Shown here: in pieces, positions 5,796-31,639 of the stretch
How positions within the stretch are numbered: the stretch's first letter is position 1
Layout of the letters: each line of letters starts with the position of its first letter
Assembly (NCBI GenBank): GCA_026388765.1
Contig: JAPLJC010000262.1
Location: forward strand, 1 to 32,727
Length of the DNA stretch: 32,727 bases
From: Deltaproteobacteria bacterium
GTDB lineage: Bacteria; Desulfobacterota; Desulfobaccia; Desulfobaccales; 0-14-0-80-60-11
Reading direction: 5' to 3'
The notes under the pieces: generated by a model
Seen by the model: only the letters and a program-made list of their open reading frames with translations
Databases searched by the model: none
Told to the model about the DNA's origin: nothing
Translations under genes and position numbers: made by a program

Positions 5796-6605
5796 ATGAC
5801 TTCCAAGAATCCTGAGAACAACCAGGCTGCCGCGGTCCCCCCGGCCTTTTGGCAGCAAGGGCTGGCCTCCATGCGGCGCTACTGGCTCATCTGGTCCCTG
5901 GTGGGGCTGGCGCTGCTGGGCCTGTTGGCTTATTTCACCAGGTGGGCGGTGTGCAGCAGCGGCATGTGGGATTGGGTTTGCCACTATTACGACCTCCTGG
6001 ACGACAAAGAGAAGGTGCGGGCCTTCCTGCAGGCCGCCGGCCCGGCGGCGCCCTTGACCTTCATCCTCACCCAGATCCTGCAAGTGGTGTTCGCGCCCAT
6101 TCCGGGAGAGGCCACCGGTTTTATCGGCGGCTACCTGTTCGGGGTGCCCCTGGGGATGCTGTACTCCACCATCGGCCTGACCGTCGGCTCCCTGATGGCT
6201 TTTATGCTGGGGCGCTGGCTGGAACATAAGTTCGTAGCCCGAGTGGTCAGCAAGGAGAGCATCGAGAAGTTTGATTTTTTGATGGAGCGCCAGGGGGCCC
6301 TTATCGCCTTTTTTCTTTTTGTGGTACCCGGTTTTCCCAAGGACTACCTCTGCTTCATCCTGGGCCTGAGCACCATGTCCTGGAGGCTTTTTTTACTCTT
6401 GTCCACCGTGGGCCGGCTACCCGGCACCCTGATGCTCACCTTGCAGGGGGCCCAGGTTTACAAGGGCAATTACATGGTTACCGGGCTGCTGCTGGGCTTC
6501 TGTCTGCTGTTGGCAGGGATGCTTTATTACTACCGGGAGCCGCTGTATCACTGGCTGCGCAGCTGGCATGAGAATCAGGTGAATAATCACTCAAGCGAGG
6601 TCTGA
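5796..6605 (+). CDS. TVP38/TMEM64 (SNARE-associated/DedA-superfamily) membrane protein
   Basis: Hydrophobic protein; FAPIPGEATGFIGGYLFGVPLGMLYSTIGLTVGSLMAFMLGRWL. Confidence 0.85.
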   Translation: MTSKNPENNQAAAVPPAFWQQGLASMRRYWLIWSLVGLALLGLLAYFTRWAVCSSGMWDWVCHYYDLLDDKEKVRAFLQAAGPAAPLTFILTQILQVVFAPIPGEATGFIGGYLFGVPLGMLYSTIGLTVGSLMAFMLGRWLEHKFVARVVSKESIEKFDFLMERQGALIAFFLFVVPGFPKDYLCFILGLSTMSWRLFLLLSTVGRLPGTLMLTLQGAQVYKGNYMVTGLLLGFCLLLAGMLYYYREPLYHWLRSWHENQVNNHSSEV

Positions 6606-13009: not shown

Positions 13010-13906
13010 ATGAGGAGAATTTTCTTCATTCCGGCCCTGATCTTTTGCTTAACGGGGTTGGCCGCTGGGGGTGAGGCTCCTAAGGTGGGGTCGGACGGCG
13101 GCTCCCTGGTCCTGGAGAGTGCCAAAGATGCCAAGGATTCCCGGAAGGCCGGCGCTGCCAGCGACACCCTCTACGACCTCCTGGGCCAGGAAGTGCAGGT
13201 CTATATCTTCAATAACAAGACCCGGGTCTGGCCCAAAACCGTGGTGCGTTCCGGCCCCTGGGCTTATCAGAGCACCGGGGCTTATCGGAGCGCCTTAGCG
13301 GGACGCCACGACCCCCGGGTAGACACTTTTATCAATAAATATGCCATGGCTTACGGGGTGGACCCGGCCCTGGTGCGGGCGGTGATGCGGAACGAATCCG
13401 GTTTCAACGCCGGGGCGGTCTCCCCCAAGGGGGCCCAGGGTCTGATGCAGTTGATGCCCGGCACCGCCGCCCTCATGGGGGTGCGCGACCCCTTCGATCC
13501 GGAGCAAAATATCGCCGGCGGGGTGGGCTATCTGCGCCACTGCCTGGACCGGTTCGGGCACAACGTGCCCCTGGCGGTGGCGGCCTATAACGCCGGCCCG
13601 GAAGCGGTGGCCAAATATTGCAGTATCCCGCCCTACCAGGAGACGCAGCTCTTCGTTAACAACGTCATGGGGACTTATGGCGGCTACGGCCCCAATCGAG
13701 CGCTAACCAACCCCGCCGCCAATCCCAAGGCGTCTGCCGCCGGGGTGAAGAAGGTCGAAAAGGGCGCCGCGGGCAAAGTGGCGGCGGCCCGGGACAAAGA
13801 CAAAGACCAAGACAAGGACGCCCCCCGCCGCCGCCCGAGGGCCAAGATCATCGAAGTCAGGTCCAACAAAGTCCAGACCAAGGCCATCTCCATCCTGAAA
13901 GATTGA
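13010..13906 (+). CDS. secreted SLT-domain lytic transglycosylase
   Basis: MRRIFFIPALIFCLTGLAAG signal peptide; AYGVDPALVRAVMRNESGFNAGAVSPKGAQGLMQLMPGTAALMGVRDPFDPEQNIAGGVGYL...AVAAYNAGPEAV; charged C-tail. The ORF track starts at 12980. Confidence 0.92.
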   Translation: MRRIFFIPALIFCLTGLAAGGEAPKVGSDGGSLVLESAKDAKDSRKAGAASDTLYDLLGQEVQVYIFNNKTRVWPKTVVRSGPWAYQSTGAYRSALAGRHDPRVDTFINKYAMAYGVDPALVRAVMRNESGFNAGAVSPKGAQGLMQLMPGTAALMGVRDPFDPEQNIAGGVGYLRHCLDRFGHNVPLAVAAYNAGPEAVAKYCSIPPYQETQLFVNNVMGTYGGYGPNRALTNPAANPKASAAGVKKVEKGAAGKVAAARDKDKDQDKDAPRRRPRAKIIEVRSNKVQTKAISILKD

Positions 13907-13915
13907 GCCTGCCCG

Positions 13916-14013
13916 AAAAAAAATAGGGACACCTCCTATTTTTGCTGAAAAAGTCCAGTGACAAAATTGGTTTTCTCAGGCATGGCAAAAATAGGAAGTG
14001 TCCCTATTTTTTT
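13916..14013. repeat. REP doublet (AAAATAGGGACACCTCCTATTTTT...AAAAATAGGAAGTGTCCCTATTTTTTT), copy 1
   Basis: Inverted arms, each a mini-hairpin AAATAGG/CCTATTT; second and third copies at 14274 and 26319. Confidence 0.92.
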
Positions 14014-14266
14014 CGTCAACAACGTCATGGGGACTTATGGCGGCTACGGCCCCAATCGAGCGCTAACCGGCCCCGCCGCCAAGGCCGCGGCGGCAGCCGC
14101 CGGGGTGAAGAAGGTTGAAAAGGGCGCCGCGGGCAAAGTGGCCGCGGCCCAGGACAAAGACAAAGATCAAGACAAAGACGCCCCCCGCCGTCGTCCCAGG
14201 GCCAAGATCATCGAAGTCCGGTCCAACAAAGTCCAGACCAAGGCCATCTCCATCCTGAAGGATTGA
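14012..14266 (+). pseudogene. duplicated 3' end of the lytic transglycosylase gene
   Basis: 255 nt collinear with 13652-13906, no indels; encodes FVNNVMGTYGGYGPNRALT...AISILKD*. Confidence 0.92.
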
Positions 14267-14273
14267 TCCTGCC

Positions 14274-14386
14274 AAAAATAGGGACACCTCCCATTTTTGC
14301 TGAAAAAGTGACTACATAAGCTTAACCAGTGACAAAATTGGTTTTCCTAACCACGGCAAAAAATAGGAAGTGTCCCTAGTTATTTT
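14274..14386. repeat. REP doublet, copy 2
   Basis: CAAAAATAGGGACACCTCCCATTTTT...AAAAAATAGGAAGTGTCCCTAGTTATTTT; shares the interior GACAAAATTGGTTTTC with copy 1. Confidence 0.9.
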
Positions 14387-17212: not shown

Positions 17213-18310
17213 TCAGTCCATCAGCAAGTAATCGACCGCGGTAAGGATATTTTTGGTAATGGTAAAGGTATCAAATATGCTGTAAGCACCGGTATTGCCG
17301 CTATAACTGTTTACCGTTACGCGGTTGCCGTTGATATCCACTACACTGAAATAGTAGGTGTTGGCACCCTGAGAAATATGCCAGAGAGTCGGGTCGACCG
17401 TGGGGGTACCTGTATCTACCGGTGCGCCACAGGTGCCGTTGAGCACTTGAACGACATTGTTGTGCCATTGGAGCGGAGTGACGGGTAGGGGGTTGGGGGC
17501 AATGCTGCTGTCGATGGTCTTTCGGGAATAGAGATGGGTATGCCCACAAAAAAAGATGTCAAAACGGTTATTATCCAAGAGCCTCCACAGGTTCGTATAG
17601 GTCATATCGGGGGGATAGGGCGGGGGGGTAGGGGTAAACTGGGTTACATAGTAATAGGGCCCATGGGCGAAAAGAAACTTATGGGTTGCCTTGGTCTGGG
17701 CCACCTGGGCTGTGAGCCAGTTTAGTTGGTTATTATCAAAAGTGCCGGTAATGTCAGGCGGAGGGTTGGGGCCCACATTGGCAGTAAGATAATAAGGATC
17801 CAACACGGCAAAGAAGGCGTCACCCCCGGGAGATTCAAAGGAATAGACCAGCTGTTCATAACCGGACGGCCCGTTGGCGGGATTTCCCGTAAATACCTGT
17901 TGGTATGCGGTTTGATTGGCGAGAACAAAGGCGTCAGAAACCTGGTTATAGAGTTCATGATTGCCGAGGACGGTATATAACGGTATGCCGGTACTCGTCA
18001 TGATGTTCTTAAATGTCTGGAAATTATAGGTGCCATTGTAACAGCCCCGATAGGCCTGGTCGCCGCCGTAGATCACAAATGACGGCTTAGGATTTAACGC
18101 CGCAATTTGGGCATTGATGGCGTTCAAGACGGGCGCGTTGATTAGATCGGTGGGAGTGGGATTGGGCATGGTGGGGTCGCCTGAACGGCTATCGGCCAGG
18201 AAGACGAAACGTAAGGTTTCGCAAGAGCCCGATACCGGCAGGAGCACGACCGAGAATAGGGCCGCCAGCAAACAGAGAACCGAGACGAGCCGTTTGATTT
18301 TGTAAGTCAT
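17213..18310 (-). CDS. secreted metallophosphoesterase (paralogue A)
   Basis: Signal peptide; YGGDQ, VLGNHELYN, FAHGPYYY, CGHTHLYSR motifs; SD AAGGAG. Confidence 0.88.
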   Translation of the reverse strand: MTYKIKRLVSVLCLLAALFSVVLLPVSGSCETLRFVFLADSRSGDPTMPNPTPTDLINAPVLNAINAQIAALNPKPSFVIYGGDQAYRGCYNGTYNFQTFKNIMTSTGIPLYTVLGNHELYNQVSDAFVLANQTAYQQVFTGNPANGPSGYEQLVYSFESPGGDAFFAVLDPYYLTANVGPNPPPDITGTFDNNQLNWLTAQVAQTKATHKFLFAHGPYYYVTQFTPTPPPYPPDMTYTNLWRLLDNNRFDIFFCGHTHLYSRKTIDSSIAPNPLPVTPLQWHNNVVQVLNGTCGAPVDTGTPTVDPTLWHISQGANTYYFSVVDINGNRVTVNSYSGNTGAYSIFDTFTITKNILTAVDYLLMD

Positions 18311-18343
18311 TTTTTATCTCCTTAAATCACACCCCAGAGGCGG

Positions 18344-19462
18344 TCAGTCCAGCAGCAGCATCAAGTTGGTCGCAGGGGTTGCATTTTTGTTGATGGTAAA
18401 GGAGTCAAAGACACTGTAAGCTCCGGTGTTGCCACTATAACTGTTTACCGTCACCTGGCTGCCGTTGATATCCACCACACTAAAATAATAGGTGTTGGCG
18501 GCTTGAGAAATATGCCAGAGAGCCGGGTCCACTATGGGGGTATCAGTAACTATAGGGGCGCCGGCGGTGCCGTCGAGGAGCTGAACCACATTGTTATGCC
18601 ATTGGATCGGAGGGATGAACTGTGAGGAGGGGGCAATACTGATGTCGATGGTCTTCCGTGAATAGAGATGGACATGCCCGCAACCATAAAGGTCAAAACG
18701 GTTATTATCCAGGATTCTCCATAGCTTCGTATAGGAAATATCCGGAGGGTTTGCGCCCCCTTCGGGGGAGGTTGGATAGTAACAGGGTCCATGAGTGAAA
18801 AGAAACTTATGGGTGGCCTTGGTCTGGGCCACCTGGGCTGCAAGCCAGTCTAGTTGGGTATTATCGAAAGTACCGGTAAGGTTAGGGGTGGGGTCATCGG
18901 CGGTCAGATAATAAGGATCCAACACGGCAAAGAAGGCGTCGCCCCCGGGTGATTCAAAGGAGTAGACCAGCCGCTCGTAACTGTGGGACGAGTCGGACGG
19001 CCCGTTGGTGGGGTTACCAGTAAAGGCCTGTTGGTATTGGGTCTGATTGGCGAGATAAAAGGTATCAGGGGCAGATAGGTTAAATGTTGGGTTAAAGAGT
19101 TCGCGAGTGCCGAGAGCCGTGTAGAATGGTATGCCGGCATTTGTCAGTGGCGCCATAACACTTTTAAAGGCCTCGAAAGTATAGGCGCCCTGATAACAGC
19201 CACAAGCGGCCTGGTCGCCGCCGTAAACCACAAATGACGGCCGGGGAGATAACGCCAGGATTTGGGTAATGATGGGAGTTAAGACGGCCGTGTTGATCAG
19301 ATCGGTGGGGGTGGGATTGGATGGGATAGTGCCTACAGGGCTATCGGCCAGAAAGACGAAACGTAAGTTCTCACAATAACCGGATGCGGGCAGGAGCGCG
19401 GCCGAGAACAGGGCCGCCACCAAACAGAGAACCGAGACGATTTTTTTGATTTTGTAAGCCAT
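18344..19462 (-). CDS. secreted metallophosphoesterase-like protein (paralogue B), GNHE motif degenerate (GTRE)
   Basis: Clear paralogue of 17213-18310; YGGDQ, ALGTRELFN, THGPCYY, CGHVHLYSR. Confidence 0.85.
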   Translation of the reverse strand: MAYKIKKIVSVLCLVAALFSAALLPASGYCENLRFVFLADSPVGTIPSNPTPTDLINTAVLTPIITQILALSPRPSFVVYGGDQAACGCYQGAYTFEAFKSVMAPLTNAGIPFYTALGTRELFNPTFNLSAPDTFYLANQTQYQQAFTGNPTNGPSDSSHSYERLVYSFESPGGDAFFAVLDPYYLTADDPTPNLTGTFDNTQLDWLAAQVAQTKATHKFLFTHGPCYYPTSPEGGANPPDISYTKLWRILDNNRFDLYGCGHVHLYSRKTIDISIAPSSQFIPPIQWHNNVVQLLDGTAGAPIVTDTPIVDPALWHISQAANTYYFSVVDINGSQVTVNSYSGNTGAYSVFDSFTINKNATPATNLMLLLD

Positions 19463-19627
19463 GTTGTTCTCTTTAAATCCCGTTGCAGAGGCAGGTGAGG
19501 TTTGGGGACCTAATCAGACCGGTTCACTGAATATTGGCCTGCACAGTTACGAGTAACAAATACCCTTAACTTAGCGATTATTTTTATTTTATCAAAATAT
19601 TATATCTACTTCAGCGAACATGGCGGC

Positions 19628-21376
19628 TCAATCCTGTAACAATAGCAGGTAGAGTTGCGGCGCGATAGTTTTGGGCACCGCCTGCAGGCCAAAGCTGTTG
19701 GTGGTATAAATCGGCCGCCAGGATAAGTTTGGGGCCTCGGAGGCGACGACGATCTGGCTGAAGGTGCCGCTCAGGCCGCCGCTGGCGGTGATGATATTGG
19801 GAAAGACCTGATTGTTCGCGGGCACATAATCGTTTTGCATGTCGATGGACAAAACGCCGTTCAGGGTGGCGGTGCCCGGAGAACCGGCAATTATGAGTTG
19901 ACTGTATTCGCTGGCCGAGCCGATGTTGACTTTGAAAGTTCCGGCCGCACTTTGAGCATAATTGCCGGTGACATTCAAAATCCAAGGCCCGCTATAAAGC
20001 CCGGGGCAGACATTGCCGTTATTAGTCAGCGTCCCGAAGACCGTGCCGGTGCCCTCCAGGCTGCCGGCGGGACTGCTGGTCACCTGGTTGAGGCTGCCGC
20101 CATGCAGCGTCGCCAGACCGCCGCCACTCACCGTCACCGGGGCGCTGGCATAGTTGCCGTAAACCCGAAGTTTACCGCCGGAGACCGTGATCGGCTGCGA
20201 ATAAGGGCTGCTCCCGGCACTTAACGTCAGAGTGCCGGAACCTTTTTTATTAATAGCAATACCGGGATAAAAATCGCTGAGGATTTGCGGGACGATGGTT
20301 TGGCTGACGTCATTTAAACCCAAGGTTTTGGAGGTGATGGTGTAACTGAAGGTTTCATAAGGCACCCAGGAGGTGGGCACGGCATTGGCAGGCAGGCCGG
20401 CATAGTAAGTGATGGAGACCTGGTTGCCGTTCACCGTCACCACGGCGTAGCCGAATTGGTTTTCCAGATGGTTCCCCAATGTCGGGGTCACCACATCAGG
20501 TTGCGGGGGCTGGCCACCCTGTTTCTGGTAGGAATAATAATTGCCGTCCCAAGGTCCCAACGGGCCGCCTCCCCCGCCGGCAATCAGTTGGGTGATGGGG
20601 GGGGTGGTCTTACCATTGACGTCGGTAATGGTTATGGTGGCCCGGTTATAGAGATGGCTATGCCCGCAGAGATAGACCTGGCAGCCGCCAATGCCGAGGC
20701 TTTCCCAGAAGGCGTCCCGGTTGAGGGGATAATAGGCCATACTGCTCAGGTCTTCAGTCACGGCCACGGCGGGCAAATGGCCATAGACAAAGACGTGGGG
20801 CAGGATATTGGCGGCCAACTGCTCATCTAACCAGTTCTGGTTGAGCCTCTCATCATAATCCGGCATGAATTCGTCCATCCCGACAAAAAAGGCATTCTGG
20901 TTGGCAAAGGAAAAGGTCAGGCCCTTTTCCTCAGCCGGACCGTTTTGGGGGATTTGGGTCAGAACCTGGGCGATGCAGGTATCCCAATAATAGGGATAAT
21001 ACGGGCTGGAAATTTCACCATAGGTCTCATGATTGCCGCGCACCGGATAGGAGATGTCCAAGATCAGTGCCATGGCATTGCGCCAGTTTTGGTACATGGT
21101 CGGCAGGGATGCCTCGGTGGAGCTATGATGCCCATGAATCTGGTCCCCGCCGCACAGCACCAGAAAAACCCCCCGGTTATAAAAAATATCGCTGGCCATG
21201 GCCTGGACCACCGGGGTATTAATTCCCACGGCGCCATCGCTGTCACGCTGATCCCCCAGCACCGCAAAACTCCAGGGCGCCGCCTCGGCCAAACTGGAAA
21301 ATAATATGAAGGCCAAGGACAAAATTGCCAGCAGCATCACCAGGCGCTGACGCCAGTTTGAATTTAAGCGGTTCAA
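19628..21376 (-). CDS. secreted metallophosphoesterase with C-terminal autotransporter-passenger-like beta-repeat region
   Basis: CGGDQIHGHH, PVRGNHETYG, VYGHLPAV, CGHSHLYNR; then GSGTLTLSAGSSPYSQPITVSGGKLRVYG...GSLEGTGTVFGTLTNNGNVCPG. Confidence 0.87.
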   Translation of the reverse strand: MNRLNSNWRQRLVMLLAILSLAFILFSSLAEAAPWSFAVLGDQRDSDGAVGINTPVVQAMASDIFYNRGVFLVLCGGDQIHGHHSSTEASLPTMYQNWRNAMALILDISYPVRGNHETYGEISSPYYPYYWDTCIAQVLTQIPQNGPAEEKGLTFSFANQNAFFVGMDEFMPDYDERLNQNWLDEQLAANILPHVFVYGHLPAVAVTEDLSSMAYYPLNRDAFWESLGIGGCQVYLCGHSHLYNRATITITDVNGKTTPPITQLIAGGGGGPLGPWDGNYYSYQKQGGQPPQPDVVTPTLGNHLENQFGYAVVTVNGNQVSITYYAGLPANAVPTSWVPYETFSYTITSKTLGLNDVSQTIVPQILSDFYPGIAINKKGSGTLTLSAGSSPYSQPITVSGGKLRVYGNYASAPVTVSGGGLATLHGGSLNQVTSSPAGSLEGTGTVFGTLTNNGNVCPGLYSGPWILNVTGNYAQSAAGTFKVNIGSASEYSQLIIAGSPGTATLNGVLSIDMQNDYVPANNQVFPNIITASGGLSGTFSQIVVASEAPNLSWRPIYTTNSFGLQAVPKTIAPQLYLLLLQD

Positions 21377-21603: not shown

Positions 21604-21632
21604 TTGACTTATCATTTTCCCCGGAATATACT
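21604..21632 (+). promoter_or_regulatory. sigma70-type promoter of the M-box operon
   Basis: TTGACT-17 nt-TATACT, placing the TSS just before the M-box. Confidence 0.8.
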
Positions 21633-21639
21633 GATTTCA

Positions 21640-21802
21640 CCTCAGTTAGGTGAGGCTCCTGCATAAACACAGGCCACTGCCCAGAAACGTCGAGAGACGC
21701 CAATGGGCCGAACAGGTATTACCGGCTTAAGGTTTTACTTAATGTGGCTGAGTAGACGTACTCTACGTTGTGCAGTGCCGAAGCTCCACGAGTGAGGAAG
21801 GT
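21640..21802 (+). ncRNA. M-box (ykoK leader) Mg2+ riboswitch aptamer
   Basis: GTTAGGTGAGGCTCCTGCATAAACACAGGCCACTGCCCAGAAACGTCGAGAGACGCCAATGGGCCGAACAGGTATTACCGGCTTAAGG...GTGCAGTGCCGAAGCTCCACGAGTGAGG matches the remembered M-box consensus; adjacent Mg-type genes. Confidence 0.93.
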
Positions 21803-21825
21803 CGATAGCCGGCGTCTTTAACGAG

Positions 21826-21854
21826 GGCCTTCCGCCACGTGGGAGGCCTTTTTT
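21826..21854 (+). terminator. intrinsic terminator, expression platform of the M-box
   Basis: GGCCTTCC-GCCACGT-GGGAGGCC followed by TTTTTT. Confidence 0.85.
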
Positions 21855-21886
21855 CTTTGCCGGTGGTCTTAAAGAGGAGTGCAGCC

Positions 21887-23179
21887 ATGAGTCACAAGGT
21901 CCAGGTCGAGGTGCTGGGGGAATTCTTCTTCAGCCAGATTCAGGGGGTCCCCATTTACGACCACGCCGGCAAGCAGGTGGGTGAGTTGCGGGATGTGGCC
22001 ATCCGCTGGGACGGAGAGATCCCGAAGGCCACCGGCCTCAAATATGCCAAGGGGGTTAATGAACTTATCCCGGTGGATCAGGTCGATCATTTTAACCAGG
22101 AGGGGGTCAAGCTCAAGGGGCCGCTGGCGGCAGAAAGGCTCGTATCCTTACAGCCCGATGAGATTTACATGGGCAAATGGTTGATGGACAAGCAGATCAT
22201 CGACATCAAAGGGGCCAAGGTGGTCCGGGTCAATGACATCAAGATCTTCTGGCTGCAAACCGGGGACCGGAAGTTTCTGCTGCCCGTGGCGGTGGACATC
22301 GGCCTGCGGGGCCTGGCCCGGCGTCTGGGGGTAGAGTTCTTGTTGAAGAAACGGGAGAACCACTTTGTCTGGTGGCACTCCATCCAGCACCTGGAGGAAA
22401 AGACGGCGAGTCTGAAGCTGGTCTCCGACCGGGCGCAATTGGATAAGCTGCACCCGGTCGACCTGGCGGATATCCTGGAAGACCTGGACTACAAGAAAAG
22501 AACCGACTTCATCGAAGACCTGGACGTGGAGACCGCGGCGGAGGCCGTGGCAGAAATGGAGTCGGACACCCAGATCGAGATCATCGAGCATCTGGACAGC
22601 CAGCAGGCCGCCGATCTCCTGGAGGAAATGCCTCCGGACGAGGCCGCCGACCTCCTGGGGGAACTGCCGGAGGAGAAGGCCGACGAACTTCTGAACCTCA
22701 TGGAGCCGGAGGAAGCTCAGGAAGTCCGGGAACTCATGGAGTACGAGGAGGGTACCGCCGGCGCCTTGATGACCACCGAATACATCGCCCTGGCGTCGGA
22801 ACTCACCGCGGCCGAGGCCTTCCCCGTACTGCGGAAACTGGCTAAGGAAGCGGAGACCATCTATTATCTTTATATCCTGGGGGAAGGGGAGACCCTGCTG
22901 GGGGTCGTCTCCTTGCGGGAACTCCTCATCGCCGAACCGGACTCCAGATTGGACAGTATCATGCAGGAAAGGATCATCTCGGTGTTGCCCGAGGATCCGG
23001 ACGAGCGGGTGACGGAACTCATCGACAAATATGCCCTGCTGGCGGTGCCGGTGGTGGAGGAAAGCGGCAAGATGCTGGGCATCATCACGGTGGACGATGT
23101 CCTGGATATGCTGATCCCGGACCGCGGCAGTCTGGAAACATTCTCAAATTTCTTCACCAGAAAACGGGCCATGAAATGA
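21887..23179 (+). CDS. MgtE N-domain + CBS-pair protein with PRC-barrel-like N-terminus, lacking the MgtE transmembrane domain
   Basis: ATG at 21887 preceded by AAGAGGAG. FSQIQGVPIYDHAGKQVGELRDVAIRW is PRC-like; LHPVDLADILEDLDYKKRTDFIEDLDVETAAEAVAEME...LLEEMPPDEAADLLGELPEEKADELL is MgtE_N; two CBS repeats; ends in RKRAMK* with no TM helices. Confidence 0.9.
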   Translation: MSHKVQVEVLGEFFFSQIQGVPIYDHAGKQVGELRDVAIRWDGEIPKATGLKYAKGVNELIPVDQVDHFNQEGVKLKGPLAAERLVSLQPDEIYMGKWLMDKQIIDIKGAKVVRVNDIKIFWLQTGDRKFLLPVAVDIGLRGLARRLGVEFLLKKRENHFVWWHSIQHLEEKTASLKLVSDRAQLDKLHPVDLADILEDLDYKKRTDFIEDLDVETAAEAVAEMESDTQIEIIEHLDSQQAADLLEEMPPDEAADLLGELPEEKADELLNLMEPEEAQEVRELMEYEEGTAGALMTTEYIALASELTAAEAFPVLRKLAKEAETIYYLYILGEGETLLGVVSLRELLIAEPDSRLDSIMQERIISVLPEDPDERVTELIDKYALLAVPVVEESGKMLGIITVDDVLDMLIPDRGSLETFSNFFTRKRAMK

Positions 23180-23187
23180 GGGGTTAA

Positions 23188-24429
23188 ATGAAATTTAAAT
23201 CGCCAATTTTCCGTCGGCTCTTCCTCTTCCTGGCGATCATGGGGCCCGGCATCATCACCTCCAACGTGGACAATGATGCCGGCGGCATTACCACCTATTC
23301 CGTGGCCGGCGCCGTTTTAGGCTACAAAATTCTGTGGCTCTTCCTGCCCATGATCCTGGCCCTGGTGGTTATCCAGGAGATGTGCACGCGCATGGGCGCG
23401 GTCACCGGTAAAGGGCTGGCGGACCTGATCCGGGAGCGCTTCGGGGTCAGGATCACCTTTTACGCCATGGCGGGTCTGTTCCTGGGCAACCTGGGCAACA
23501 TAATGAGCGAATTTGCCGGGGTGGCGGCCAGCATGGAGCTGTTCGGGGTGAGCAAATATATATCGCTGCCCCTGGCAGCCTTGTTCACCTGGTGGCTGGT
23601 GCTGCGCTGGTCGTACAAAGTAGTGGAAAGGGTCTTCCTGGCCGCCTGCCTTATCTATTTCAGCTACATATTTTCCGGCTATTTGGCTCACCCGAACTGG
23701 GGGATGGTAGCTAAAGAACTGGTAGTGCCCAGCTTTTCTTTCGACAGTTCCTATGTGGTGATTGTCGTCGGCCTCATCGGCACCACCATCGCCCCCTGGA
23801 TGCAGTTCTACATCCAGTCGGCGACGGTAGAAAAAGGCATTACGGTGAAGGATTACAGGTATACGAAATATGACGTTATCGTGGGCAGCATCATGGTCAA
23901 CCTGGTGGCCCTGTTCATCGTAATTTCCTGCGCCGCCACCTTGAACACCCACGGCATCAAGGTGGAGTCCGCCGCGGAGGCGGCCCTGGCTTTGGCCCCC
24001 CTGGCCGGTCCCTGGGCCTCCACCCTCTTTGCCATCGGTCTGTTGAACGCTTCGCTGTTTTCAGCCTCGATACTGCCCCTGTCGACGGCGTATTTCATCT
24101 GTGAGGCCTTCGGCATCGAAGCGGGCATCGACAAGACCTGGGGGGAAGCCCCGTCTTTTTACTGGCTCTACACCATCTTGATCATCGTCGGGGCCGGCTT
24201 CATCCTGATCCCCAACATTCCACTGATCAAGGTAATGTTTTGGTCCCAGGTGATTAACGGGGTCATGCTGCCCTTTGTCCTGATCTTTATGCTCATGTTG
24301 ATCAACAATAAAGATATCATGGGAGATTACGTCAACACCCGGACCTATAATATTATCTCCTGGATTACGGTGGTGATTATGGTCGTCCTGACCCTGTTGA
24401 TGGTCGTGACGGCTTTTTTCCAATCCTGA
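23188..24429 (+). CDS. NRAMP-family divalent metal (probable Mg2+, NRMT-like) transporter
   Basis: LAIMGPGIITSNVDNDAGGITTYSVAGA (TM1), GLIGTTIAPWMQFYIQSATVEKG (TM6); about 11 hydrophobic segments; starts 8 nt after the previous stop. Confidence 0.88.
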   Translation: MKFKSPIFRRLFLFLAIMGPGIITSNVDNDAGGITTYSVAGAVLGYKILWLFLPMILALVVIQEMCTRMGAVTGKGLADLIRERFGVRITFYAMAGLFLGNLGNIMSEFAGVAASMELFGVSKYISLPLAALFTWWLVLRWSYKVVERVFLAACLIYFSYIFSGYLAHPNWGMVAKELVVPSFSFDSSYVVIVVGLIGTTIAPWMQFYIQSATVEKGITVKDYRYTKYDVIVGSIMVNLVALFIVISCAATLNTHGIKVESAAEAALALAPLAGPWASTLFAIGLLNASLFSASILPLSTAYFICEAFGIEAGIDKTWGEAPSFYWLYTILIIVGAGFILIPNIPLIKVMFWSQVINGVMLPFVLIFMLMLINNKDIMGDYVNTRTYNIISWITVVIMVVLTLLMVVTAFFQS

Positions 24430-24599: not shown

Positions 24600-25277
24600 A
24601 TGGAAGCCATCACTAACTGGATCACCCAATACGGCTGCGTTGCGGTTTTTGCTCTGCTGATGCTGGGCATCGTGGGCCTGCCGGTTCCCGACGAACTTCT
24701 CTTAACCTTCGTAGGCTACCTGATCTTTAGCAAGATTCTGCATCCCGTTCCCGTGGCAGTCGCCGCCTTTCTGGGCAGCGTCTGCGGCATTACCCTGAGC
24801 TACTTCTTGGGGCGCACCTTTGGCCTGCCTCTAATCGAAAAATACGGCCGGTTCGTTAATCTAAAAATGAAGCACTTAGAAAAAGTGCGCCGCTGGTTCA
24901 ACCGCATCGGCAAATGGACCCTGACCGGTGGTTATTTCTGCCCGGGGGTGCGGCACTTCACCGGATTCGTGGCCGGCACTTCGAAACTGGAGCTGCGGGT
25001 TTTTGCCGGGTACGCTTATCTGGGAGCGCTGTTCTGGGCGGCGACCTTCATTTCCCTGGGTTATTTCCTGGGTGAAGAATGGCCCCTGATTTCCGCAGGC
25101 TGGTTGCGCATCTCTCAGGAAGTTCATGCGCTTGCCTTAATCGTTGGTCTTCTGAGTCTCACCATCGTGGCCGGGTATCTGTATTTCCGGCCAAGGCTCT
25201 GGTGGAAGACGATAAGCCCCGTTCCGGTAGCGCCGCTCCGGTCCACCGGCCCCTTCGACGCCAAACTGCCGCGCTAA
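24600..25277 (+). CDS. DedA-family membrane protein
   Basis: GIVGLPVPDELLLTFVGYLIF...GSVCGITLSYFLGRTFGLPLIEKYGRF...FCPGVRHFTGFVAGTSKLELRVFAGYAYLGALFWA. Confidence 0.9.
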   Translation: MEAITNWITQYGCVAVFALLMLGIVGLPVPDELLLTFVGYLIFSKILHPVPVAVAAFLGSVCGITLSYFLGRTFGLPLIEKYGRFVNLKMKHLEKVRRWFNRIGKWTLTGGYFCPGVRHFTGFVAGTSKLELRVFAGYAYLGALFWAATFISLGYFLGEEWPLISAGWLRISQEVHALALIVGLLSLTIVAGYLYFRPRLWWKTISPVPVAPLRSTGPFDAKLPR

Positions 25278-28094: not shown

Positions 28095-29510
28095 TTAAAT
28101 GGCCGCTATCACCCCCTGCAAGGCCGCCTTGAGGGCCGGCAGGTCGTCCGGCAGCAGGGTGCGCAGATCCAGGAGCAGGGTGTCTTGCTCGATCCGGGCG
28201 ATGATGGGGGGTTGGGCCCGGCGGAGGCGGGCTTCCAGTTGCGGCGGGCTCAAGGGGGGGATGGCCAGGGCCAGGGCCCGGCTCGGCAGGCTCACCTGGG
28301 GCAGGGCGCCGCCGCCCACGCGACCGATACTGGGCACCACCTGGACCTGAATCCCGGGCCCCAGGGCTCGGCGCAGGCTCCGGGCCAGACCGCGGGCCTG
28401 GCGGTCCAGCTCAGCCACCGGATGAGTAAGCATCCGCAAGGTGGGAATGTCGGCAATTGCCTGGGGCTCATCCAGATAAAGGCGCAGGGTGGCCTCCAGG
28501 GCCGTTAGGGTGAGTTTGTCCGGCCGCAGGGCCCGGGTGAGGGGATGGTGGCGCAAGCGGTCGACCACCGAACGTTCGCCCAGGGCCAGCCCGGCCTGGG
28601 GACCGCCCAGGAGCTTGTCGCCCGAAAAGAGCACCAGGTCGGCCCCGGCCTTCAAGGTTTCTTGTACCGTGGGCTCCCGCTCCAGGCCGTATCGGGACAG
28701 GTCGATGAGGCAGCCGCTGCCCAGGTCCTCCACCACCAGGAGATTATAGCGGCGGCCCAGGGCCACCAGTTCCGGCAGGGGCACCTCGGAGGTAAAGCCG
28801 GTGATGCGGAAGTTACTGGGGTGGACCTTGAGCAGCATGGCGGTCTCTGAGGTGATGGCCTGCTCATAGTCATGCAGATGCGTCTTGTTGGTGGCGCCGA
28901 CCTCCCGCATGAGGGCGCCGCTTTCCGCCATGATTTCCGGCAGGCGGAAGGAGCCGCCGATCTCCACCAGCTGGCCCCGGGAGATGATGACCTCCCGGCC
29001 CTGGGCCAGGGCCCGCAAGGCCAGGACCACCGCCCCGGCATTGTTGTTCAAGACCAGGGCGGCCTCGGCCCCGGTGATTTCCTGGAGCAGCCCCTCTAAG
29101 TGGTCATGGCGGGAGCCGCGCTCGCCTTTCGCCAGGTCGTATTCCAGGGTGCTGTAATGGGCGGCCACTTCCTGGATTTGGGCCAGGGCGGCCGCGGCCA
29201 GGGGGGAGCGCCCCAGGTTGGTGTGGATCACCACCCCGGTGGCGTTGATGACCCGGCGCAGGGAGGCTGTCCCGGCGGCCTGGATTTTTGGTAAAAGCTC
29301 CTGGAGGAGGCTCTTTAGATCTAACTCGGCGGGCAGGTCGGCAGCGGGACAGGTGGCGAGCCATTGGCGCTTCGCCGCCAGGGTGCGGCGCACGGCGGCG
29401 GCGGCCAGAACCCGAAGCCGGGGGGGGACCGCCGGGAGGAGGGTAGGGTGGCGCAGCAGTTCGTCCACCTGGGGCAGCTGGCGCAACAGACGGGCGCGGT
29501 CCGGGTCCAT
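28095..29510 (-). CDS. selA: L-seryl-tRNA(Sec) selenium transferase
   Basis: LPQVDELLRHP, VINATGVVIHTNLGRSPL, EYDLAKGERGSRHDHLEGLL, VNNNAGAVVLALRALAQGREVIISRGQLVEIGGSFRLPEIM, FSGDKLLGGPQAG. Confidence 0.96.
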   Translation of the reverse strand: MDPDRARLLRQLPQVDELLRHPTLLPAVPPRLRVLAAAAVRRTLAAKRQWLATCPAADLPAELDLKSLLQELLPKIQAAGTASLRRVINATGVVIHTNLGRSPLAAAALAQIQEVAAHYSTLEYDLAKGERGSRHDHLEGLLQEITGAEAALVLNNNAGAVVLALRALAQGREVIISRGQLVEIGGSFRLPEIMAESGALMREVGATNKTHLHDYEQAITSETAMLLKVHPSNFRITGFTSEVPLPELVALGRRYNLLVVEDLGSGCLIDLSRYGLEREPTVQETLKAGADLVLFSGDKLLGGPQAGLALGERSVVDRLRHHPLTRALRPDKLTLTALEATLRLYLDEPQAIADIPTLRMLTHPVAELDRQARGLARSLRRALGPGIQVQVVPSIGRVGGGALPQVSLPSRALALAIPPLSPPQLEARLRRAQPPIIARIEQDTLLLDLRTLLPDDLPALKAALQGVIAAI

Positions 29511-30369: not shown

Positions 30370-30720
30370 ATGTTTGTTAAAATTTATGGGGAAACAGGGG
30401 AAGGACAGAGGCGTTATAGCCCGTCTGAGTGCATCGGCTGTAAAACTGAGATTATCACTGGTAACCCTGATCAAAGGCATATTTCTACCAGCTACGCAGA
30501 GCGTCAGAATTTAACCATGAGAATGTCCATGCGCCGGTTTACCCGCCTTACTAATGCCTTTTCAAAAAAGGTAGAGAACTTGGCTCACGCGGCATCCCTG
30601 CATTTTATGTTCTATAATTTCGGGAGAATCCACAAGAGCCTGAGAGTGACCTCGGCGATGGAAGCGGGAATTTCAGATCATGTTTGGAGCTTGGAAGAAA
30701 TCGCAGGGCTGGCGGATTGA
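30370..30720 (+). pseudogene. 5'-truncated IS1-family transposase
   Basis: ISTSYAERQNLTMRMSMRRFTRLTNAFSKKVENLAHAASLHFMFYNFGRIHKSLRVTSAMEAGISDHVWSLEEI is the C-terminal part of IS1-type transposases; N-terminal part absent. Confidence 0.85.
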
Positions 30721-30829: not shown

Positions 30830-31120
30830 ATGATGATAATAGATATCCAGCAGATCGAATCGCAGATCAGGAGAATTGCAAAAACCAGGTCTAGAGGTGT
30901 GGCTCTCAGTAAACATTGCAGAGAAGAGAGCATGTCTGACCATGATGTTGAATTTCAGGACATTTTAAATGTCCTGAACTGGGGCCAAGTGACCCATGAC
31001 CCCGATGAAAATTGTGATATGAAGTTCAAGGTTAATGGCTCGGATTTGGAAGGTGAACCCTTAACTGCCGTTGTGGTTTTTCTTGATACAAATTCTTTGC
31101 TTGTAGTAACTTTGTGGTGA
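30830..31120 (+). CDS. DUF4258-like small protein, putative toxin
   Basis: RGVALSKHCREESMSDHDVEFQDILNVLNWGQVTHDPDENCDMKFKVNGSDLEGEPLTAVVVFLDTNSLLVVTLW; followed by an MqsA-like gene. Confidence 0.75.
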   Translation: MMIIDIQQIESQIRRIAKTRSRGVALSKHCREESMSDHDVEFQDILNVLNWGQVTHDPDENCDMKFKVNGSDLEGEPLTAVVVFLDTNSLLVVTLW

Positions 31121-31126
31121 AATGCT

Positions 31127-31639
31127 ATGGCAGCAATGACTTGTCCTACCTGTAAACAAGAAGGGCAGACCCATATAGGGAAACATCACTATACAGAATC
31201 AGGTTTGCAAAATGTATGGTTGAAGGGTGTGGAGATTTTTGTGTGCAATAAGTGTGGGGAGAATTTTGCTTTTATCCCATGCGCTCAAGAAATACATAAA
31301 TTACTTGCAGAGATTTTATTACAAAAAGAAGATCAATTATCGGGTCGCGAGATTAGATTTTTAAGAAAGCATATGGGAATGAAATCTAAGGATTTCGCTG
31401 AACGACTCGGCGTGAAGAATGTAACAGTTTCCAGGTGGGAACACGAAGAAACTATACCACCTACAACAATTGACCGTTTGATTCGATACTTTTATGCAGC
31501 AGAGATGAACCTTTTAAAATTAGCTCCTAAGATTAAGGATATTAGATTTCGAAAACATAAAAAAGATCAGGAAGCCCCTGTAATCAACTTGCCAATTGGC
31601 AAAGCAAGGGGGAAGGAAGCCTGTGTAGTTAACGCATAA
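31127..31639 (+). CDS. MqsA/YgiT-type antitoxin (zinc ribbon + HTH)
   Basis: CPTCKQEG...VCNKCGENF zinc ribbon, then SGREIRFLRKHMGMKSKDFAERLGVKNVTVSRWEHEETIPP HTH. Confidence 0.88.
   Translation: MAAMTCPTCKQEGQTHIGKHHYTESGLQNVWLKGVEIFVCNKCGENFAFIPCAQEIHKLLAEILLQKEDQLSGREIRFLRKHMGMKSKDFAERLGVKNVTVSRWEHEETIPPTTIDRLIRYFYAAEMNLLKLAPKIKDIRFRKHKKDQEAPVINLPIGKARGKEACVVNA

Follow-up and report, generated by a model that had tools for sequence, protein, structure and literature searches.

Operons in which M-boxes precede nramp-related genes were described in Clostridia and Deltaproteobacteria by Shin et al. in 2014 (PMC4072509), who also noted that a gene for the cytoplasmic domain of MgtE adjoins most members. 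Two C. acetobutylicum NrmTs transported Mg2+ without the sensor gene. In the single test of co-expression, carried out with the sensor of A. capsulatum, no added rescue was observed; the A. capsulatum NRMT itself gave full rescue of a mutant in Mn2+ uptake and partial rescue of one in Mg2+ uptake. The M-box was tied to the Mg2+-specific members, and feedback regulation or chaperone activity was proposed for the MgtE-like protein (PMC4072509). In the later NRMT literature that we searched, we found no mention of the sensor as an NRMT partner in such a role. The EleNRMT of Eggerthella lenta (7qia) transports Mg2+ without proton coupling and also carries Mn2+ (PMC8806188). EleNRMT was studied by itself, and no sensor partner is mentioned in the sections of that report drawn on here, whereas the permease gene described below is paired with a sensor gene.

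We analysed a stretch of 32,727 nucleotides from a Deltaproteobacteria bacterium (hereafter the window). An M-box, a gene for an MgtE-like cytoplasmic domain (gene 1) and an nrmT gene (gene 2) follow one another in the same direction (Table 1), the same parts in the same order as the M-box/mgtE-like fragment/nrmT operons of Shin et al. (PMC4072509). Both the operon class and the idea of regulation in trans, at which the first-pass annotation had also arrived, had thus been published, and the present locus is a further member. What is new here is the near-perfect co-occurrence of sensor and permease, the exclusion of canonical MgtE from most genomes with the pair, the single old lineage of the sensors, the retained sensing residues and the tandem PRC barrel. 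Among these, the PRC barrels, the pattern of Mg2+-site residues and the exclusion of MgtE are absent from the main text of Shin et al. (PMC4072509), as are unlinked pairs in which each gene has its own M-box. We consider it probable, at roughly 0.6, that the soluble Mg2+-sensing partner docks on NRMT and restrains it in trans. With these data, a loosely framed idea becomes a definite hypothesis that can be tested, namely a Mg2+ gate acting in trans on a transporter unrelated to MgtE.

Table 1. Features of the M-box-controlled sensor-NRMT operon in the window
Feature	Coordinates	Strand	Evidence
Sigma-70-type promoter, TTGACT-17 nt-TATACT	21604..21632	+	consensus scan, 10/12
M-box Mg2+ riboswitch aptamer	21635..21802	+	RF00380, 156.5 bits, full model 1-169
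Putative antiterminator strand GGAAGGUC	21796..21803	+	complementary to 21826-21833 (terminator 5' arm)
Intrinsic terminator of riboswitch, hairpin 21823-21851 plus T tract	21823..21856	+	13-pair stem, U run
Gene 1, free-standing putative Mg2+ sensor (tandem PRC barrel, MgtE_N and CBS pair; no transmembrane domain), 430 aa	21887..23179	+	Pfam, AlphaFold2, Foldseek
Predicted tandem PRC-barrel region, residues 7-168	21905..22390	+	model mean pLDDT 90.6, Foldseek, Pfam in relatives
MgtE_N domain, residues 188-288, with E219, D251, D255 (MgtE E59, D91, D95)	22448..22750	+	
CBS pair, residues 289-409, with D404 (MgtE D247)	22751..23113	+	
C-terminal tail at the position of the MgtE plug helix; acidic pair absent, low model confidence	23114..23176	+	
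Gene 2, NRMT-type Nramp permease, 413 aa	23188..24429	+	Nramp 338.7 bits (Pfam)

The promoter, M-box and terminator that the first-pass annotation had placed ahead of gene 1 were all recovered, and its proposal of M-box control was supported by Rfam. The aptamer score of 156.5 bits lies far above the gathering score of 44 (E 3.7e-36), and an expression platform with both terminator and antiterminator is present. The start site predicted from the promoter coincides with the first bases of the aptamer. Promoter and aptamer are arranged alike in three relatives (L007-L009), in which TTGACA-17-TACAGT precedes the M-box. The putative antiterminator strand GGAAGGUC overlaps the 3' strand of aptamer helix P1. 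When the leader was folded, the two alternatives had -29.4 kcal/mol (terminator) and -24.8 kcal/mol (antiterminator, forced), and the fold of the whole leader beat 200 of 200 shuffles (z -3.26). In nearly all M-box relatives, a terminator follows at a similar distance. The leader has the usual OFF-switch layout, and by analogy to other M-boxes its switching should depend on Mg2+. At high Mg2+, the aptamer would hold the P1 strand and the terminator would stop transcription; at low cytosolic Mg2+, the antiterminator would form and both genes would be transcribed. The M-box of B. subtilis (ykoK) likewise combines a full-length aptamer with a transcription terminator, but it controls mgtE, whereas the one described here precedes the sensor-NRMT operon.

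Gene 2 starts 8 nt after gene 1, and Pfam confirmed its product as the Nramp-fold permease that had been proposed from the letters. Its closest solved relative is EleNRMT (7qia, E 4e-119), while the best MntH gave E 2e-30; the score with the MntH model, 135.6 bits, stayed far below its cut-off of 430. The metal site contains the motifs DNDAGG and GTTIAPW. NRMTs are marked by a replacement of Asn by Gly in helix 1 and, in helix 6, of Ala/Met by Thr/Ala and of the first His by Trp (PMC8806188). The gene 2 protein has Gly in helix 1 and Thr, Ala and Trp in helix 6, and it matches EleNRMT closely over the whole length, with the metal-site Asp, Gly, Thr, Ala and Trp in common (PMC8806188). The residues D30, G33, T199, T200, A202 and W204 are identical in 85 of 85 relatives, which had been selected by two motifs that cover part of the site. 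An identity as an MntH/SLC11 Mn2+-Fe2+ transporter was rejected, as DAGG and APW replace the canonical Asn of helix 1 and Met/His of helix 6. Judged from its residues, the permease is an NRMT with a metal site like that of the Mg2+ transporter EleNRMT and unlike that of MntH. The initial assignment to the Mg2+-type Nramps is thus borne out at the level of the metal site, and the gene 2 protein would be expected to transport Mg2+.

Taking into account the rescue pattern of the A. capsulatum clade member (PMC4072509) and the Mn2+ transport by EleNRMT (PMC8806188), we considered a permease that mainly imports Mn2+, with a Mn2+-responsive sensor. This appears very doubtful for the present locus, which has an M-box upstream, the mark of the Mg2+-specific members according to Shin et al. 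(PMC4072509), and the metal site of EleNRMT, and whose sensor-permease pair replaces MgtE as described below.

The host has a second Nramp protein (L002, G000:C2:13368-14441) with a DDDPSG/TPY metal site, which belongs to neither the MntH nor the NRMT type and represents another outgroup type. Genes for membrane proteins with a VTT/DedA domain are found at 24600-25277 and 5796-6605, and the former follows the NRMT gene directly and in the same orientation.

The gene 1 product was then compared with MgtE. Pfam detected two stretches of CBS as well as MgtE_N (104.4 bits), and the transmembrane channel domain of MgtE (PF01769) was absent from the protein, as was the case in the initial reading. 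With the full MgtE model the score was 196.6 bits, short of the cut-off of 232.75. The AlphaFold2 model (mean pLDDT 86) was matched best by the MgtE cytosolic domains 2oux, 8gpv and 2yvy in Foldseek (E 1e-22 to 1e-21). The N-terminus, about residues 1-168, was modelled as two small barrels (pLDDT 90.6), whose best PDB matches were the PRC-barrel proteins CdpB1/CdpB2, MTH1859, RimM and reaction-centre H. The Pfam PRC score of gene 1 itself, 19.8 bits, is just below the cut-off of 21.2, and PRC was detected in 66 of 68 relatives (E 0.01 or better). The model and these matches identify the N-terminus as a conserved tandem PRC barrel. It had been regarded at first as an extra module. The PRC assignment held, whereas the accessory status did not: the second barrel and MgtE_N are conserved to the same degree (0.61 and 0.63, respectively), and the barrel has more near-invariant positions (14 vs 9), so that the PRC part belongs to the core of the sensor family. 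Patches reading DKQ, RVND and RRLG are invariant in the PRC barrels. A search of the literature on PRC barrels together with MgtE or CBS found no earlier description of this part.

We examined the residues of gene 1 at positions corresponding to the Mg2+ sites of T. thermophilus MgtE listed in PMC5882242 and the ATP site listed in PMC5529423, where mutation of F227 abolished ATP binding. The fold shared with the MgtE cytosolic domain (2yvy/2zy9; Foldseek E 7e-22) is accompanied by four acidic Mg2+-site residues: E59 (Mg7), D91 and D247 (Mg4) and D95 (Mg6) are kept as E219, D251, D404 and D255, and D95 is conserved in 72 of 72 sensors. On the other hand, the membrane domain is missing and a tandem PRC barrel is added. 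D226 and F227 are replaced by A383 and L384; Leu at the F227 position is also found in canonical MgtEs of neighbouring genomes, and ATP binding by the sensor would accordingly be expected to be weak or absent. The acidic pair E258/D259 of the plug helix is missing as well, the tail of gene 1 reading IPDRGSLETFSNFFTRKRAMK where canonical relatives have EEATEDIYRLG. The alignment thus indicates that the sites by which the N domain is clamped to the CBS part are kept and that the channel-contacting parts are gone. The sensor probably binds Mg2+, and as D226, F227 and the acidic residues of the plug helix are not conserved, its output cannot be that of MgtE. In the first-pass annotation, the Mg2+ gate of MgtE was supposed to have been separated from its channel; this stands for a channel-less sensor with E59, D91, D95 and D247 retained, and fails for an intact gate. 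Both Mg4 residues are retained in 24 of 24 sensors with an M-box and were lost jointly in 18 sensors, 0 of 18 with an M-box; these 18 form one clade, and the match therefore counts as one event and not as statistics.

In a tree of the MgtE_N-CBS region, a supported branch separates 73 sensors from all MgtEs. As far as the tree can tell, the sensors are one old lineage and not truncated copies of mgtE. Gene 1 does match the cytosolic half of MgtE without the membrane half, as would an mgtE that had decayed to a truncated copy and adjoined a permease unrelated to it. This origin is barely conceivable and was rejected on the basis of the branch together with the PRC region common to nearly all relatives, which also have a common end point and no MgtE channel; in addition, the reading frame of gene 1 is intact throughout. 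A fused MgtE channel, which would have marked the present copy as simply truncated, is thus missing from nearly all relatives.

A scan of GTDB with an NRMT alignment gave 80 loci, 75 of which were not cut by a contig end. The sensor gene adjoined the permease in 72 of the 75 (immediately upstream in 71, downstream in one), and in the other three it was present elsewhere in the same genome, in agreement with the conserved pairing that had been predicted. The 72 include two loci (L092, L109) with long permease frames extending upstream; these overlap a separate sensor gene in another frame, and a natural sensor-permease fusion was found in none of the 80 loci. Among 198 genomes of the phylum, 43 had both sensor and NRMT, one had only the sensor and none had only NRMT, a co-occurrence that, like the residue data, is in itself no proof of contact. 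Seven pairs in these genomes were linked but convergent and six were split over different contigs, and the association is therefore independent of a shared operon. The convergent, tail-to-tail neighbours (L115-L121, in G051, G184, G209, G117, G167, G189 and G086) come from one group of families.

Two Peptococcaceae-type genomes, one from Peptococcaceae (L074/L144) and the complete chromosome of Acididesulfobacillus (L080/L145), have unlinked pairs, with NRMT and sensor separated by about a megabase or located on different contigs. In both cases each gene directly follows an M-box of its own (137-147 bits): an M-box and a lone sensor without transporter at L144:1116-2733 and L145:1121-2745, and an M-box and NRMT at L074:5539-7224 and L080:5585-7227. 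By eye, dnaA-like and phosphofructokinase-like genes flank the L145 sensor. An M-box precedes 27 of the scanned NRMT loci. Its absence in most of the others was checked with Rfam, which reported no Mn2+ riboswitches near the M-box-less pairs.

Canonical MgtE (PF01769, above cut-off) was present in four of the 43 genomes with the pair and in 117 of the 155 others (Fisher p 2e-15, ignoring relatedness; the genomes are related, and p-values overstate their independence). In the class of the host, eight genomes have the pair, 12 have MgtE and none has both. The MgtE channel domain (PF01769) was not found in the host genome, which encodes one CorA in addition to the second Nramp. The sensor-NRMT pair thus largely excludes canonical MgtE.

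The sensor might also serve Mg2+ homeostasis without gating NRMT, by buffering or delivering metal, or by reporting the Mg2+/nucleotide state to CorA or to a cytosolic partner bound through the PRC barrels. The presence of CorA in the host and a PRC region that equals the MgtE part in conservation and might bind some other partner are compatible with this, as are the chaperone alternative and the lack of a co-expression effect in Shin et al. (PMC4072509). We nevertheless regard it as rather unlikely, taking into account that a soluble protein of small size can do little to buffer millimolar Mg2+ and that the sensor co-occurs almost perfectly with NRMT specifically, unlinked and convergent cases included. 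The co-expression result is compatible with a brake on NRMT and could not have revealed one, since better rescue at low Mg2+ is not what a brake would bring about.

Regulation of NRMT by the sensor would work as follows. The permease would import Mg2+, probably without proton coupling, as suggested by metal-site residues identical to those of EleNRMT. An uncoupled importer driven by the membrane potential alone has no intrinsic stop, and a brake would therefore be needed. MgtE avoids unlimited import through its cytosolic gate. Here the sensor would be a soluble MgtE_N/CBS protein that carries a tandem PRC barrel and is probably dimeric, as MgtE is, and we infer that it contacts NRMT and inhibits it. 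Mg2+ bridging its N and CBS domains would restrain NRMT and provide a second, fast feedback loop as a protein brake, beside which the M-box would act as the slow loop. A fuller version seems to us about evenly balanced: the cytosolic gate of MgtE would have become a regulatory subunit in its own right, which uses its PRC barrels to dock on an importer of the unrelated LeuT fold and shuts this importer in trans at high cytosolic Mg2+. If regulation in trans does occur, one operon would combine Mg2+ feedback at the RNA level and at the protein level, and a cytosolic Mg2+ gate would explain how cells with a passive, uncoupled NRMT avoid over-accumulation. The permease would then be the first member of the Nramp family known to us that has a soluble subunit dedicated to gating.

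Several other features were noted elsewhere in the window. A direct repeat of 267 nt (92%) occupies 13652-13918 and 14012-14278, where a gene for a lytic transglycosylase has its 3' end duplicated just downstream. The minus strand carries three consecutive metallophosphatase-like genes at 17213-21376, two of them tandem duplicates (~77-90% in aligned blocks) and the third with a PATR-like repeat, and also selA for selenocysteine synthase (28095-29510), which suggests selenoprotein synthesis in the host. An ORF at 30370-30720 resembles, by eye, the remnant of an IS1-type transposase. At 30830-31639, a DUF4258 protein gene followed by one for an MqsA-like HTH protein resembles a toxin-antitoxin pair, and a tRNA cluster, Thr(TGT)-Tyr-Gly-Thr(GGT), lies at the contig end (32067-32424).
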